49,429 nucleotides of DNA from Planoprotostelium fungivorum (lineage: Eukaryota; Evosea; Variosea; Cavosteliida; Cavosteliaceae). Below the pieces are notes generated by a model. It did no database searches, was not told the origin of the DNA, and was given only the letters and a program-made list of their open reading frames with translations. A program made the position numbers and the translations under genes. Location: positions 1 through 49,429 of the forward strand of contig MDYQ01000205.1 of NCBI GenBank assembly GCA_003024175.1, given 5' to 3'. Positions 18,893 through 27,429 of this stretch are shown one piece after another. The number at the start of each line of letters is the position of its first letter. Position 1 is the stretch's first letter.

Positions 18893-21800
18893 TTATTCGG
18901 CAAAGGAATCGTAGACGCGCTCCGCGGCCTCTTGTCTCTCCGCTGACACCGTCAATCGCACGGGCTGTTGGGTCGATTTGGCAGTGTTCACCTTCAGCAC
19001 CTCGCTCATGTGAACTGTCCGTCTGATCAGTCACGGCCACGATCACCCTCGCTCACCTTGCATGATGTCACTGAGAGAAGTGTATTGCCTCTCGTCGATC
19101 CAAAAGTGTTGGGTGTCGACTGTCTTCTGAGAACGGATTCTCCAATGTCCGACTTGTCCTCCGTTGCTGACGGAGAGTGTGTAGCACTTGGGCTGCGAGC
19201 TGAAGCGGAACAAGAAGGTTCCCGTGGGGTGCTTCAACAGGATCTACGTGGGTCAGCTCTACTCCAATCTTCCGTTCTTACCTTCTGGGTCTCAGAAGGG
19301 TCTAAGAAGCCCCAGAACCACCTGTCACAGTTAGTCTCGATACAAAGAGAGAGGAGAACGAAGCAGTGATGATGAGAGGAGACCCACTTGTACTTGACCA
19401 TGTTGAGGACGTCCTTGAGAGTGTAGAAGGGCACGGAAGATCGAGTGTCGCCGGTCTGTGCACTCTCGTCCAGAACAACCACCTCCGGCTCTTCTGCATA
19501 AGAGGGTACCAGAGGAGAGAACCACTGGATGAAGTTGTCCCACGTCGATTTGCTGACGATACCCTCTGTCCATCATCACTATGGAAGAGATGGAACTAGA
19601 ACTCACTGGGAGCCAGGATGTACTTTAGATCGTGGATCTTATCCTTCTCACGATCTCCCTTCACTTCCAAGAAGCTGGCCATGGTGTTGCGGAAGGTCAA
19701 CCAATCGACATCGCGGTCTAACGTCGCTCTGATCTTCGACTCAGCCTCACCAGCCTTGATGAACACTGTGCTCCTCCTCTGAGTGGATCCCAGAGCGGAC
19801 GGAATGAACTGCACGGAGTCAATATCACTCAATATGGATGGTAGGATGACGAGAGTCGTGAGTGGATAGATGGACAATAGTCGAAACACACCTCATCAGA
19901 ACGAGTGAGAGGAGAGCTGGGTCGATTGGGTGTGACAGCGCCGGGAGCGGGAGCGAGGGCGGAGCTGATGGGCATGAGAGGCTGTCCCATATTCATCGAT
20001 GCCGGTCTTCCGTTGATGAATCCTGTGTGGGTCAGAGGAGAAGGAGTGATCAATGGACCACCGGGTGGGTTGTAGAGAGCAGAGCCCGGAACAATGAAGC
20101 TCGATTGACCGGGTAAGTATGGATTGTGAGCCATTCCACTGGGGTTAGAAGGATTCAGAACGCCTGCGTTCATCAGACCTCGGAACACTTGAACGAGAGA
20201 GACGAATGAGAACTGACCTGCCGTGGGGGGTAATCGATCGTAAGCGGGAGAAGCGGCCGCCGCGGCGGAGATGGAAGAAGAATCGGGCTGTCTCTCGTGT
20301 GTGGGTACTCTCTGCACGCTCGTCTTCCCTGCAGCTCCCTCGCTGTTTGACTGCGACAGAGCCGTGGTTGAGGTTCTTCCATAGTTTCCTGCAGCGGAAG
20401 TCTCCGACTCGTCCCTCCTCTGCAGGGGGTAGCCCAGCGATGTGGCAGGTGGGTCGGATAGAACGTCCTCGTCCAATTGATCGTCGAAGGCTAATGCCTG
20501 GGACATCTGATCTAACAGAGTGTCGTGGTGCACCGTCTGTTGTGCGGGTGGTTGGACGGGGTGTGTCGCAGGTGTGGTGGGAGGATAGTGGGGTGTCACT
20601 TGTGTGGGTGGATAAGGTGATGCTCCAGGTGGGTACTGAGATGTCACGGGGGGATAAGGTGATGCCCCGGGTGGGTACTGAGATGTTGCAGGTGGGTACT
20701 GAGATGTTGCAGGTGGGTACTGTACGGTGGTCATCGGAAGAGTGACTGGAGTGACAACCTGCTGGACTGCATTGCCTCCACTGTTGCTCCTGTTCAATCC
20801 CTGTCTCGTTTCAATGGTGATGTTGCGGTGAGATGAGAGACCTGCAACTGGGCGATCTGGTGCTGCTGCTGCTGCTGGAGGAGAGCGACGGCGGAGGGGT
20901 CGAGTGACTTCCTGTACAGACTGGTGTTGGGTGACAGAGCGGGCTTCGCTTGGACGAGGTTCTTGTGTGATTCTGCGAAATCATGGTCCATCTGAGCTAA
21001 TCTCTGCTTGTGATTCTCATCAATCCTCACGTGCTCTTCCTTCTTTCGCTTGACCTGCTCCTCGTATTCTCTCTCCTTCACCTCCTGCTCTCCGTCATTT
21101 CTCTCTCCTCTCTCCTCCACTCACCTGCTGCTGCTTCAGCTCCTCGATCTCTTGGTTGCACTTGTCCCTCGCTTCTTGGATCTGCTCCAACTTTTCACTT
21201 CTGGCCTGTTGGGCCATCTGCAATTGCATCAATTCCAGTTGAATGGCTCCCTCGGTCTCAGCCCCAGCGATCTGTTCTCTTCAGTCTCTTCCTCTCTCTT
21301 TCATCTCTTCCTATCTCTTCTCTTCCTATCTCTTCTCTTCCTATCTCTTCTCTCTCACCTTTTCTCTCTGGAGCTGCTCATGCATTCCCTGGTCCACACT
21401 GGAATTCACGTTGATCTTCGATTCGTTCCTCTCCACGTTCTTGTGCTCCAATTGCACCTGGTCTGTCTCATTCTCCTTCCTGGTATAGATCTATTTCTTC
21501 TCACCTTCAGTGTGTTCAGCTGACCCTGCAGTTCGTTCATCATCCGCTGGTTCTTCAGTTGCTGTGCCAAGTGGTGCTGGGTCTGTCTGTCTTTCTCCAT
21601 GTTCTGCAGCCGTTCAGTCTCCGCTGCTGTCTCCCGTTCTCACCTGAGTGTTGAGACGATCCACCAACTCTCTCAGTTTGAAGAGCTCCTTCGCTTGGGC
21701 CGGAAGGGTGGCTGGTAAGGTCATATCTCGGCTTCCCACTCTGTCTCTCGTCAGTATAGAATGATGCATCATCGTGAGCTCGATGAGAGACGCATGACAC

Positions 21801-23107
21801 GTAGACGGTGAAGGATGATGCGTGGATGATGAAGGATGACGTCACCTGTTTCCATTCTCGTCGGTGAGAACCGTGAGATGCAATCCGAAGGGTAACCTGC
21901 GACGTCAATTTCAACCGTCTACAACGCTGTAGATCACCCGGTGGGCTCTACTTTGGACATGGCTATCCTTCCCCTGAGGAATTCTTCCTCGAAGGTTCTG
22001 AAGATGCGAGAGGCGGAGGGTCTCTGGTCTGGATTCACTTGAGAGCATTCGAATGCAATCTTTCTCAGTCCCATAGGAACTTCGGCCAGACAGGGATCCA
22101 TGATCGACTGGATGGGGAAGGGTATCACGACCGGCTGCGGAGTTGAGTCATAAGAGGCTGGATGACTTGGTCACCTGAGGATCTTCCTCGGAGGCTTGTG
22201 CCGTCTTCTCGAAGAGGTTGATGATGAAGTGACCGAATTGGAGGACGTCCAATTTAGCGCTCCGGCTCTCTTCTTTTCCGTCGGTGTGGACAAAGTTCTG
22301 GCTCGTAAAGGAATACTCTGTACAGATCAGCGTGGAGTCACGTTTTTAGCTCACCCGTCAACTTGATGCCGTTGCTACCACCACGGACGGTGTGCAGGTT
22401 GAGATTGCCGTGGATGAGACCGGCCGAGTGGAGCTGCCAGAGGGCCCATGCTACCTCCCACAGGAGAAGGATCTTCTGTGGCTCTTTCAATGCGGCCCAT
22501 TCTGGATGAACGTCAGTCTTCAGAACGCATATGATGCGTTGGTAAATCGATGTGTGGATGTTCGGATGGTAGAGAAAGTAGAAGAAAGGCTCACTAATGT
22601 CTTTCTGGATGAGGGAGTCCAAGTCGTTTCCTACAAAATCACCCTGAAACTCTACGACCTCTTCGACGGTGTAAGATTGCTTCTCTCCTGCGGGACCTCT
22701 CTTTATCATTCCAAAGACTCTTCCTACGTGGGGATGAGGGGGAAGAGCTCTGCATTATTGACATCAGCATCGGCTGCACAAACGCCTGATTAACTCACCG
22801 AAAGAGCCTCAGCTGCTCTTTTACATAGCTGGAATCCGTCGGATTCTCTGTCTCATATTAGCGGCTCTTCTGCGCTCTAAAACTCACCCGTGCATTTTCT
22901 AATTAGAACTACGTGAGAAGTCTCACTATGTATCCATCTTCCTTTGAATGTGGAACGGTTTCTGTCGTTGATAATCTCGATATCCTTCCATTTAATGTCT
23001 ACTTTGTGAACCTTTGAAACCTCAGTCTCGGTTCCTGTTGCTGCACTAGATTTGGGTCTTCTATGCTTCGCTGGTGAAGCCGCCCCGCGAGGGCTACCTT
23101 CCATCAT
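18893..23107 (-). CDS. Pseudokinase - coiled coil - YPP-rich - SH2 domain protein
   Basis: ATG at 23107 (MMEGSPRGAASPAKHRR), stop TAA at 18893-18895. A TKL-like kinase fold runs from about 23000 to 21960: VDIKWKDIEIINDRNRSTFK, VVLIRK, LHSAGLIHGNLNLHTV, GIKLTEYSF, KLDVLQFGHFIINLF, ECSQVNPDQRPSASRIF. The catalytic loop reads HGN instead of HRD, and DFG is replaced by LTEY, so it is probably inactive. A coiled coil follows (AQAKELFKLRELVDRL, EHKNVERNESKINV, QQQQQHQ), then a YPP-repeat Pro-rich segment, then a linker (GIVSKSTWDNFIQWFSPL). The SH2 domain carries the phosphate-binding Arg in GTFLFRFSS, preceded by WFWGFLDP. The overall plan joins a JAK-like pseudokinase feature to a STAT-like coil and SH2. 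Many introns of 29-90 nt are required; continuity of one gene is inferred from frame-compatible splice sites throughout. Confidence 0.75.
20580..20725 (-). repeat. YPP-containing tandem repeat in the SH2 gene
   Basis: Inside the SH2 gene, six to seven units of about 21 bp encode QYPPATS, QYPPATS, QYPPGAS, PYPPVTS, QYPPGAS, PYPPTQV. The proline- and tyrosine-rich segment resembles WW- or SH3-domain ligand sequence and offers regularly spaced tyrosines ahead of the SH2 domain. Confidence 0.85.
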
Positions 23108-23602
23108 CCTCTTTGTCTCTGCTCGGAAAAAATGTCAACAATTGTGTAGGCCGGAACACTTCTCCCTTGGTCCTGATAAAAAAAGTCAATATTCGCCTGT
23201 GATAGTTTCATCCACTCTGCCCCTCCTGACTCGAGTGACGAGCTCTGAACATTATATGACGAGAGGGGACCACAAGATAAACGGTGAAATTTGAGCGACC
23301 GACTGACTTATTGTGTTAACCATTTTTCCTCGTCGACAGGGTGCCTCTTCTGAAAAGAAACAATTTTGAAGACCATAGATGACACGATACCGCAAAGTAT
23401 TCAATATTCCCTCTCAGATTTGGTTGTCGTGTGGTATATCAAACAAACACAATTGAATGAACTAGGACAATCGACATGTTATCACCGATGATCGGATCAC
23501 CAAAACGTCTATTCACAGCCTTATCCGTAGGTCATCGAAGGAAATGTGGTCATCGCTCGCAGGTCCAAGATCGTCCTTTTTGGTATTACTTCCACACATC
23601 AC
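23108..23602. other. intergenic, no gene seen
   Basis: About 500 bases between the start of the SH2 gene and the end of the TFIIA gamma gene, both on the minus strand. It must contain the SH2 gene promoter. Open frames here (for example 23476-23778 on the plus strand) overlap TFIIA gamma exons and have no recognisable features. Confidence 0.5.
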
Positions 23603-24078
23603 CTACGAAGATAAGCTGGAAAACAGAGGAGATGCAGAATTACCGTCTTGAACTAAAAGTTTCACACAATCGACCCAGATGGTTTCGAGTCCTACCCGAA
23701 AGGTGGAGTTGGCAGCGATCATCGTCCACTGAGAGTCACTGTAGTTGTAGGATAGTAATTCACCCTAGAACACGTTAGGAGACGAATCGAGGAAGGTTCG
23801 CACGTCGAATGAGATCTCTCCCTCTGCATTTCCCTCTCGTTTTGTCTTCTCATGTTGTGCATCGAGGGCCTGAGTCATACTCTTCTCCAGATCAGGTGAT
23901 TGTTAACAAAAAAACTCACCACATCAAAGTCCCGCATGATTTGTTCCATTTGATCTTCGGTAAGCAGATTCTCTTCTCGTAATTCGATCGCGGCTGTGGA
24001 GAGGCATTGTCCTAATGTCGAGTCTCTGTAGATTTCGCTCTGTTGCTTCACTTTGCTCTTTGAGTTGATGCGTTCCAT
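23603..24078 (-). CDS. GTF2A2: Transcription factor IIA gamma subunit
   Basis: ATG at 24078 (MERINSKSKVKQQSEIYRDS), stop TAG at 23603-23605. The conserved N-terminal helix is EIYRDSTLGQCLSTAAIEL with TEDQMEQIMRDFD. Two introns then lead to MTQALDAQHEKTKREG and the beta-barrel strands GELLSYNYSDSQWTMI, NSTFRVGLETIWVDCVKLL. This matches TFIIA gamma (small subunit), which with TFIIA alpha/beta stabilises TBP on promoters. Length is about 130 residues, slightly longer than the usual 110 because of an extended N-terminus. It is divergent from the PAS kinase with 295 bp between. Confidence 0.9.
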
Positions 24079-24373
24079 GTGTTAAAAATTATGGGGCGAA
24101 AATGTGTGCTTCGTTATTCTTTCATGTTGAACCACAACGGAACACTGTATCACGGTTTCACGACGATGTCTAGCTAGCTATTTAACATCTTTATTTTCTC
24201 AATATTAGCCAGAGGGAGACAGGTGGTGTGACCTGGAATAGAATAGAAAAACATCTATACTCTCTAAACGAAGGCGTTCACTTCAGATTGGGACCGAATG
24301 GCCATACGTGTACTCGTGTGGTGTGAATTTATATCGAGGCGATTAAGTCATTTGAAGTGTATGGTGGGTTGTA

Positions 24374-27007
24374 TTGCATGAAACGCCAATTCTCAGCGAG
24401 TTTCCTCGGGCAGAGGTGCTGACACGAGCAGAGGCAACAGCAGGACCCATGCAGAACTCGACTATAATTACGATAACACCTGATGGTATTATACAGTCAG
24501 CCGATAAGAACTGCGCCAAACTCTTCGGTTATACGATCGATGATTTGGTTAAGCAGCCCGTATCCATCATCATTCCTGTTCCATACAAGGATAGACACCA
24601 AGACTATGTGGAGAGATACATGAGTTCTCAGGTGGGCCACCCTCAATTGAATGAGAGCTGATTCGTGGAAGGCACCCAAGGTGTTGGGCAAAGCAAGGAC
24701 AGTCGAAGGTCAACATAAGGACGGTTCTATTTTTTCCATTCGAATTACCATCTCCAGAGTGGGCGAAGGTGCTGACTGCATTTTCGTCGGTATGATCGAT
24801 AAGTTGGAGGATAAATCAGGTAAGTCACCGAATTGCAGAGGACACAAACTCAACTGCGACAATAGCCACCATTACCATCAAGGTCGATGGAACAGTTGTC
24901 TCTTGCAACCACAACATCGAGGAACTATTTGGATATAAGGCGAACGAAGTCATCAGTAACAACGTAACCATGCTGCTCCCAACACCATCTCATCAGACTC
25001 AAGAGACTCATCTGGCCAATTACATTACGGGCGGTAACAATGGCAAAGCGGGCAGAGTCAGAAACCTCCCAGGAAGACACAAGAACGGTGCACAGTCCCT
25101 TCCATCATATCATCTGATCTCCCGACAGGTGCCGTCTTCCCCATCAGTTTGACCGTAGAAGAGATCAAAGTGGGCACTATCCAACTCTTCAGAGCTCGCA
25201 TGGAAAAGGTTCTACCCCTCATCCATCATCCACCCATTCTCACCATCCCTAGGTCGATGAGATCGAGTCCCTCCTCGTTTTGGACGAGGCCGGAATCGTC
25301 ATGCAGTGCAACCACATCTTTGTTCTTCCTCTGTTGGGCTACACTGCCACCGAACTCGTTGGCACGCACATCAACATCCTCGTGCCTCCCGGCCACCAAG
25401 GAATCTCTTACATCTCATCCAACTCCCACTCCAACATCAAACAGGCCCCACCCCCGACTACTGAGGCCGATAGCAACGAGCCCGGAGCGAAACGCCCGAG
25501 GTGATTGGAACATCATCATCGATCGATCGTGAAGACGATCAGGTACCACGAATCGTTCGCAGAGAATCCAGATCTCTTCTGGCAGACTCCGGGAACGTAC
25601 AGCAAGCAGCTGCAGCACAAGGACGGTTCCCTCTTTCAAGTCGACATCGAGATCTCCACTCACATCCACCCGGAGACATCCAAGCCCACTCACTCTGTCA
25701 AGATCAAGGTGAGAGGAGAGGTGGAGGTGGACCTCATCGTCTGTAGAGATCAGACACGAAGGAGAGCAACAAGGAGTCATCGGACTACAAGATGATCGGA
25801 CCATACTTTGTATCGAAGACAGTTGGACAGGGTTCTTACGGTAAAGTGAAGCTGGCCTATCACAAGGATACGAGGGAGAGAGTGGCCATCAAGATATTGC
25901 AGAAGAGCAAGATGAAGGAAGTCGATCTACAACGAGCCAAGAGGGAGACGTCCATCCTGCAGGAGCTGAAGCATCCCTACATCGCTCAACTGTTTGACAT
26001 CATCGAATTAGAAGACACTCTCAACATCGTCATGGAATTTGCCGGGAGGACTCTGTTGTCTTACGGTGAGTTGCTGATGTGGTACGACGTGTGATGACGT
26101 CATACAGTCCTCGAGAAGAACGGACTGGGTGAGGACGAAGCCCTTCGATTCTTCATCCAGTTGATCTCCGGTATGGAGTACTGTCACAAGCGCAGCATCA
26201 TCCACAGAGACATCAAACATCAAGTGAGAACATCATACTACATCGATCGACGTCCTTCTATTCATCGTGTGTCTCACACCCAACAGAACATCTTACTGGA
26301 CGACAAATTCAACATGAAGCTCATCGATTTTGGACTGAGTAACTACATGGAAGAGGGAAAGATGCGCAGTACCTTCTGCGGTACCCCTGCCTACGCTGCC
26401 CCCGAGATGATCATCGGTAAGAAGTACAACGGTCCCGAGGTAGATATCTGGGTGCGTACACGCTTCTTCCCCTCGATCTCACCTTGACAGTCGATGGGTG
26501 TCGTCCTCTACTCTATGATCACCGGTGTCTTCCCGTTCGATAATGTGGGTGACATCATCAAGGGAAACTTTCAAGATCCTCCCACGGCATCGAAAGGTAA
26601 GAAGGAAGGTGTGGAGTCGACTGACAGAGACAGAATGCTGTGATCTACTGAGACGTATGCTCAACGTGGACTTGAACACTCGTATCACCGTGTCGGGTGT
26701 CATGGAACACGCTTGGGTCCAATCTGGCCTGCACCCGGAGCTACTCAACCAGCAGCCGGCCACTCTCATCGGTGCTCCCAGCACGGGAAACCTTCAGGAG
26801 GCACTGGCAGCGACGGCATCTTCTTCTCCCGTAGTGGGAGGAAGGAAGAGGAGCATAGAAGAGAGCCAGAGGACAGATGTTCCTCCCACGAGCACGGAGG
26901 CAACGAACGGCAACAGCAATGGAGGAGAGAAGACTGAGCCTGTCAAGATCATCGAGTGCACGGTGGTGGGAGAGCAGAACGGAGAGGAGAAGGTAGTGCA
27001 GCAGTGA
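24374..27007 (+). CDS. PAS-domain Ser/Thr kinase (three PAS domains, CAMKL kinase)
   Basis: The likely start is ATG at 24374 or the in-frame ATG at 24449. Three PAS domains occur in a row: IITITPDGIIQSADKNCAKL with FGYTIDDLV; ITIKVDGTVVSCNHNIEEL with FGYKANEV; and LLVLDEAGIVMQCNHI with LGYTATELV. Each ends in a strand with HKDGS- or HKNGA-type sequence. The kinase (from about 25790) has GQGSYGKVKLA, VAIKIL, HRDIKHQN (spliced), DFGLSNYM, GTPAYAAPEMI and VDIWSMGVVLY, typical of the CAMKL/SNF1 group, with all catalytic residues. The tail is Ser/Gly/Asn-rich and low-complexity, stop TGA at 27005-27007. The plan matches PAS kinase, a nutrient sensor, but with an extra PAS domain. Confidence 0.88.
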
Positions 27008-27429
27008 AGGAGGTGTCGCGTGGTTCATAACCACTAAGCCTGCCGTATGTCATCGATAAAACGCTCAAGCTTTTCGTGTCTAGCTGTGAGTCCCATTCAA
27101 TTCTACCGTTGTGGACGTCGTAGCGTACATCTTGAACTTGCTGATGCGGTTACGATGATGGATAGTAAAAGGGTGCAGAGTATCCCGGTAATCCACCAGT
27201 AGACAAGACAGCTCTATACGGATGGTACGACAAAAGAATAATGATAGACTACATACACTGTGCCATTTGGTTTACATGGCAAACAGTTTAGTGAAGAGGA
27301 TGTAATGAGTTGCCGCCAAGGCTGTCTATAATTCCCAAGGAGCTCTTCGTACGCATACCGGTGTACTAGGAGGTTTTGAAGTCTGGCGCCGTTGTTCAGC
27401 AGATACGAGACGAGCACCCTCGTTTTGTG

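Follow-up and report, generated by a model that had tools for sequence, protein, structure and literature searches.

A predicted Planoprotostelium fungivorum gene joining a degenerate kinase domain to a linker-SH2 tail

Whether a kinase domain whose catalytic residues are gone and an SH2 domain that has kept its own binding residues are encoded together in one gene, and from which protein family such a chain would come, is the question raised by positions 18893-23107 of contig MDYQ01000205.1 of Planoprotostelium fungivorum. The whole contig of 49,429 nucleotides (nt) was analysed and is called the window here (C153 among the 471 contigs of the 36.86-Mb host genome). Based on comparisons within this genome, we propose, at somewhat better than even chances, that the locus is one intact gene, coding for a protein with broadly the Shk plan of kinase, linker and SH2, in which the kinase has decayed to a pseudokinase and a long helical and YPP-rich insert is present. 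Judged by its sequence, the protein is an odd variant of the host genome's own kinase-SH2 proteins, and not a mix of animal JAK and STAT parts. The initial annotation had read here a phosphotyrosine sensor uniting parts of JAKs and STATs; the dead kinase and the apparently phosphotyrosine-competent SH2 domain in one frame were confirmed, and the union of JAK and STAT parts was not.

The gene model and its domains

A three-frame reading of the minus strand places the start ATG at 23107 and the stop TAA at 18893, and the 19 exons between them, all of compatible phase, join into a single frame of 1084 amino acids (aa), in agreement with the single set of frame-compatible exons annotated initially, both ends of which proved exact.

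18893..23107, minus strand: complete gene model, with 19 exons coding for 1084 aa, or for 1115 aa with intron 3 retained, from the phase-consistent exon chain and a gene finder
21967..23002, minus strand: pseudokinase domain, a degenerate kinase covering aa 36-294 and encoded by exons E1-E6, from Pfam PF07714 and hhalign
22386..22418, minus strand: catalytic-loop position LIHGNLNLHTV, with HRD replaced by HGN, from sequence reading and alignment
22310..22355, minus strand: E-Y-S in place of DFG, with intron 4 (22318-22354) splitting the codon of the E, from the exon chain and alignment
20842..21603, minus strand: Q/E/K-rich, probably helical stretch, exons E9-E12, from composition and periodicity
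20579..20719, minus strand: YPP tract of seven units at a spacing of 7 aa, except for a last gap of 9, with a 42-nt in-frame length difference in contig C376, from motif count and contig comparison
19388..19808, minus strand: linker module before SH2, aa 843-968, core VDW..F...GIVSKSTWDNFIQWFSPL
19057..19321, minus strand: SH2 domain, aa 970-1046, exons E17 and E18 with the last residues in E19, from Pfam PF00017 (1.7e-13, tail)
19199..19216, minus strand: FLFRFS strand with the phosphotyrosine-binding arginine, from sequence reading and its invariance in the aligned tails

The first part of the protein, for which a placement outside the kinase fold would have spoken against the annotation, has the kinase fold by both Pfam and a same-genome profile. 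PF07714 matches the kinase segment at 7.2e-8 and the whole protein at 4.1e-6, and hhalign against 12 same-genome kinase domains gives a probability of 97.7% over 234 columns at 21% identity (positions 3-252 of 259). The whole protein goes unreported by a profile of 10 same-genome kinase domains when default filters apply; with the filters off, the segment reaches 29.5 bits and the full protein 24.7, while none of 500 shuffles exceeds 8.4. The catalytic apparatus is lost: in addition to HGN and EYS, the catalytic-loop Asn position holds T, and neither the glycine loop nor the APE motif is recognisable. Neither the β3 lysine nor the αC glutamate can be placed with certainty; the latter is matched by hhalign and set one place off by MAFFT. 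Although these catalytic residues are gone, the αF Asp and the RPS arginine are retained. The protein therefore has what generally defines a pseudokinase, namely a kinase fold without the Asp of HRD and of DFG.

At the other end, the annotated C-terminal SH2 domain with its arginine was borne out. The R of the RFS strand and the H of the HWRI motif, which we take to be the phosphotyrosine-binding residues, are both present and are invariant in 12/12 tails of alignment A1, comprising the window tail and 11 of 14 further tails. The last ~180 residues align end to end with these 11 tails at 26-35% identity (21-31% in the 14-tail alignment), and the linker alone, with SH2 removed and defined from genes of the host genome and not from Dictyostelium, is recognised at E 2.6e-9, none of 200 protein shuffles being reported. 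In the Protein Data Bank (PDB), the tail profile finds SH2 domains; among the best 60 of 333 matches all best stretches start at profile position 74 or later, in the SH2 half, and none matches the linker half. A reading of aa 850-905 as PB1/ubiquitin-like, made by look, was dropped, the stretch aligning with the linker of other genes. By eye, a short tail with a tyrosine follows SH2 in several kinase-SH2 proteins, the window protein included (YDSFAE at its end).

Between the two parts lie the helical stretch and the YPP units, of which the annotated repeats were counted as seven. The hydrophobic power at period 3.6 is raised (2.8) in the helical stretch; the heptad test is negative, 156 of 300 shuffles reaching the best heptad signal, and does not bear out the coiled coil of the initial annotation.

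Thirteen of the 18 introns of the gene model measure 37-49 nt. Under a self-trained coding model 18 of the 19 exons score above zero (E1 is negative and E7 reaches only +0.4), and all 18 introns, when read through, have negative scores apart from intron 3, which scores zero. These scores serve as a consistency check, because the model was trained partly on the window gene. The gene finder, a simple one self-trained on the window and 19 fetched loci and thus on data that include the window gene, predicts on the region alone one gene at 23104-18893 with 22 exons, some of its borders unlike those of the hand model and intron 3 kept as coding. Two further features concern this intron and the gene end.

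22502..22594, minus strand: intron 3, 93 nt, in frame, with weak splice sites, may be retained (+31 aa), from the gene finder and coding scores
18892..18897, minus strand: AATAAA overlapping the stop codon, the sole AATAAA on this strand between 18700 and 23400, from a motif scan

Contig C376 carries a near-identical second copy of window positions 20508-27154 (L009, C376:1-6847), 99.4% identical over the longest piece. Against the window exons it shows five substitution events, four silent and one P629S, and its YPP tract is shorter by an in-frame deletion of 42 nt. Such changes suit a translated gene, which is apparently not a relic; the support is mild, since the contig is short, gapped and stops before SH2, and two changes in E10 adjoin an assembly gap. 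Inside intron 10 the copy has an N and a repeated stretch; it may be assembly redundancy or a second haplotype.

The kinase-SH2 family of the genome and the origin of the kinase part

The host genome yields 79 SH2 matches (E up to 0.001, six frames), which were counted exon by exon and so stand for fewer genes. For comparison, 19 other SH2 loci were chosen from the best tblastn matches to the window tail, so they do not sample the 79 at random. In 12 of these 19 (L010, L012, L013, L014, L015, L016, L019, L021, L023, L024, L027 and L028), a kinase lies upstream of SH2 in the predicted gene; L022 was left out, since its prediction is an obvious merger and the kinase motif sits a long way upstream. 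Pfam, run on five of the 12 (L013, L015, L021, L024 and L027), finds kinase and SH2 in all five and PH in four. The PH-type genes (L010, L012-L016, L023 and L028, of which only L013 and L015 have their PH domain confirmed by Pfam) have a linker-SH2 tail that aligns end to end with that of the window protein, in which no PH domain is found by Pfam at E up to 1.

The Shk proteins of Dictyostelium, which the initial annotation had brought up, are indeed the nearest known plan. The Shk order is kinase first and SH2 last. The predicted window protein has its kinase N-terminal to SH2 in one frame, the single transcript being inferred, with the conserved linker directly before SH2. Given HGN and EYS in place of the competent HRD and DFG, it is not an Shk kinase, but a relative by its tail only. 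Passages of the Dictyostelium kinome describe Shk1-5 as SH2-domain kinases of the TKL group, and Shk1 as an active dual-specificity kinase whose SH2 is needed for membrane localisation (PMC1420674). The likeness, a kinase and a phosphotyrosine-binding SH2 in one protein, is drawn from such published descriptions; in contrast to the active Shk1, the window protein lacks the catalytic residues and has ~550 aa, helical and YPP-bearing, between kinase and linker.

Two other members of the family are also dead by their motifs. L021 (C168:132000-141900) and L027 (C133:31500-41400), both with the order PH-pseudokinase-SH2, read HGS and HHI for HRD and DYW and EYW for DFG, respectively, and like the window protein they keep the SH2 arginine. 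L013 (C222:17500-27400), a PH-kinase-SH2 gene with HRD intact and GFG for DFG, is possibly a fourth inactive member. However, the kinases of L021 and L027 are much closer to the active relatives, scoring 96 bits with the 10-kinase profile against 29.5 for the window kinase, and their predicted proteins contain no long helical or YPP insert. Kinship of the window kinase with these two was tried and rejected, as the score of the segment with their joint profile, 14.2 bits against 5.8 for the top one among 500 shuffles, is below the 29.5 of the 10-kinase profile.

Introns, which for all relatives are gene-finder predictions and not taken from transcripts, draw the same line. In ten genes (L010, L012-L016, L021, L023, L027 and L028) a set of five kinase introns recurs, each with the same position and phase in 7-10 of them; L021 has four of the five and L027 three, but the window gene has none. 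The shared tail and the unshared kinase introns indicate that the tail belongs to the family, and by this comparison the window pseudokinase is a separate orphan line, which would be either a long-decayed kinase of the kinase-SH2 type or a separate fusion.

The nearest relative of the tail itself is given differently by different signals. The tail tree places it weakly near L011/L013 (bootstrap 31), the best single tblastn match is L010 on C56 (39% over 163 query residues), and the intron just before SH2 is shared, exact in position and phase, with L018, L019 and L024 (probability of three genes agreeing at one site by chance 0.02, uncorrected), although L019 and L024 are close relatives and these matches are not independent. 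A second exact tail intron match, with L011, falls at the ragged end of the L011 prediction and was not used.

Weighing the alternatives

It is possible, though in our view clearly less likely than decay, that the kinase part never was of the Shk type, and that an unrelated diverged kinase domain was fused to a linker-SH2 cassette, giving a protein of similar scaffold function; this account overlaps the preferred one except in origin. It draws on the missing recurrent introns, on the very long branch of the window kinase (4.1 substitutions per site in a tree of 13 domains) and on a tblastn search with the window kinase, which at E up to 0.01 retrieves only its own locus and the duplicate contig. 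The domain order, however, is that of the kinase-SH2 family, and one window kinase intron, in the codon of the DFG Asp, agrees in phase with L019, a match that is not significant (chance P 0.18). With a profile of the L019 and L024 kinases, the window kinase is not among the best 8 matches listed, where shuffles already appear. The absent introns, the chance-level L019 match and the failed L019+L024 profile together weigh against decay and leave descent from an Shk kinase unproven.

We regard it as unlikely that the locus holds two adjacent minus-strand genes, a kinase-like one that stops with the TGA at 21936-21934 and, after it, a helical-YPP-linker-SH2 one with its start at an ATG near 21724 in E8. 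The joint between kinase and helical stretch (21938-21740) is where such a division would fall.

21644..21896, minus strand: exons E7-E8, bridging kinase and helical stretch, the weakest part of the one-gene model, from the exon chain, the finder and coding scores

Several points weigh here against a single gene. The single transcript over the kinase and SH2 parts is inferred from the genome; the TGA lies 4 nt or less past the E6 donor and could end a kinase part; the E7 coding score is neutral; about 550 aa separate kinase from linker, whereas in the relatives SH2 is much closer to the kinase; and at least two linker-SH2 genes (L011 and L018) have no kinase in the predicted gene. The finder gives one gene a score of 253.2, and none of six forced splits exceeds 242.5; ~9 units of the difference are the gene-opening penalty, so the preference is slight once this is discounted and a split costs only ~2 units beyond it. 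Over the whole window, the finder makes one chain of the region but swallows an upstream gene as well, a TFIIA-gamma-like one ~500 nt away whose last frame closes at 23603 (Pfam 5.7e-7, its 29.9 bits falling short of the cut-off of 33); it often merges neighbours, and L013, L016, L021, L022, L027 and L028 look like mergers by eye.

Against the division into two genes, the finder still joins kinase and SH2 at a gene-opening penalty of 0, and only at +4 and +8 does the region shatter, into many fragments; introns 6 and 7 have splice sites that belong to the best-ranked 2.7-6.0% among GT or AG sites. A weak argument comes from end signals: the SH2 end has AATAAA, and neither AATAAA nor TAAA occurs within 60 nt of the supposed kinase stop, AATAAA being found within 60 nt of 14/69 predicted gene ends versus 9/893 internal exon ends, and TAAA at 32/69 versus 108/893. 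The main argument for one gene is the domain order in the relatives, a kinase followed by linker-SH2 on the same strand in the 12 loci, to be read with the finder mergers and the ~550-aa gap in mind. The doubt over the αC glutamate, the mergers and the default-filter miss shade the argument for one decayed kinase-SH2 gene, but they are small against the main evidence.

Could the kinase part be active without canonical HRD and DFG, and phosphorylate the targets that SH2 binds? Some divergent kinases are active, as stated for BUB and SCY1 relatives in passages of the Dictyostelium kinome (PMC1420674). In the window protein, by contrast, the catalytic Asp is changed to Asn and the DFG Asp to Glu together with alterations in the glycine loop, the catalytic-loop Asn and APE, and the β3 Lys and αC Glu are uncertain, which makes an active atypical kinase improbable.

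The JAK and STAT comparison starts from a few likenesses. The JAK JH2 pseudokinase carries HGN, and JAK has pseudokinase and SH2 in one chain, as has the window protein; STATs have the general plan of helical stretch, linker and SH2. However, in JAKs a FERM domain and SH2 precede the pseudokinase and an active kinase follows, whereas the window protein has SH2 on the other side. For the whole protein, Pfam at E up to 1 gives only SH2, kinase and a sub-threshold V-ATPase_G, with no FERM, no second kinase and no STAT model (coiled coil, DNA-binding or linker). The PDB matches of the kinase segment include LIMK1, MINK1, TNIK, MLKL and PKC (best E 6e-4), and none of the 32 at E up to 1 is a JAK; no STAT is among the best 60 of the 333 tail-profile matches. 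Kinship with JAK JH2 was tried and found unsupported by Pfam and PDB matches. HGN looks convergent with JH2, because L021 and L027, dead kinase-SH2 genes as well, have HGS and HHI at this position. Nor is coil-then-SH2 shown to be STAT-like, given that the coil is not demonstrated and that SH2 is preceded by the same linker as in the genome's own kinase-SH2 genes. A JH2-homologous pseudokinase joined to a STAT coil and SH2 is therefore hardly credible, HGN and the helical stretch being outweighed by the reversed order, the variants at HGN and the absence of JAK, FERM, STAT and second-kinase matches in these searches.

Possible role and neighbouring loci

With a decayed kinase-SH2 gene as the preferred explanation, the likely role of the predicted protein would be that of a phosphotyrosine-recruited scaffold, or of an antagonist or competitor of the active kinase-SH2 relatives. 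SH2 would recruit the protein to phosphotyrosine on targets shared with these relatives, a step suggested by its intact arginine and histidine; for the steps beyond it, the dead kinase domain might serve as a binding surface, for an allosteric partner or as a decoy, and the helical and YPP-rich stretch might cluster the protein or recruit more proteins. The net effect would be kinase-SH2 signalling tuned or blocked, with no phosphorylation by the window protein itself. Tentatively, and with less confidence than the gene model itself, we suggest that the lineage has built dead-kinase and SH2 regulators on at least two occasions, one within the PH-kinase-SH2 subfamily (L021 and L027) and the other here, separately and with a clustering insert. 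If so, pseudokinase-controlled phosphotyrosine signalling would have been invented independently, in a logic parallel to the control of JAK by JH2 with the reader in the same chain.

Such fusions bear on the number of SH2 readers in amoebae. Passages of published surveys count 18 SH2 proteins in Physarum, 15 in Dictyostelium and 48 in Acanthamoeba (PMC4758236; the 48 also in PMC4053784), and in Acanthamoeba SH2 domains are about twice as many as tyrosine-kinase domains (PMC4053784). Dead kinase-SH2 fusions would offer a testable account of some of the surplus readers, as regulators of kinase-SH2 enzymes and not relays, and the host genome supplies an internal control set, in which active and dead relatives with the same tail allow the role of the catalytic residues to be compared directly. 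For pseudokinase and SH2 together in Amoebozoa, the limited collection of literature searched, represented by extracts, yields holozoan-kinase work only; the word pseudokinase is absent from the passages drawn on in PMC1420674, PMC4758236 and PMC4053784, although the Dictyostelium kinome does tabulate inactive kinases, predicting 29 inactive eukaryotic protein kinase (ePK) domains (PMC1420674). PMC12470777 and PMC8662651 also belong to the literature consulted.

Other loci add two observations. L017 (C57:46500-56400) and L020 (C286:8000-17900) each hold two close SH2 matches, and in L017 the pair is followed, by eye, by an apparent RhoGEF-PH region. In the window, a neighbouring gene on the plus strand (24651-26500) carries a PAS-like sequence (sub-threshold Pfam PAS) and then a kinase domain with HRD and DFG.

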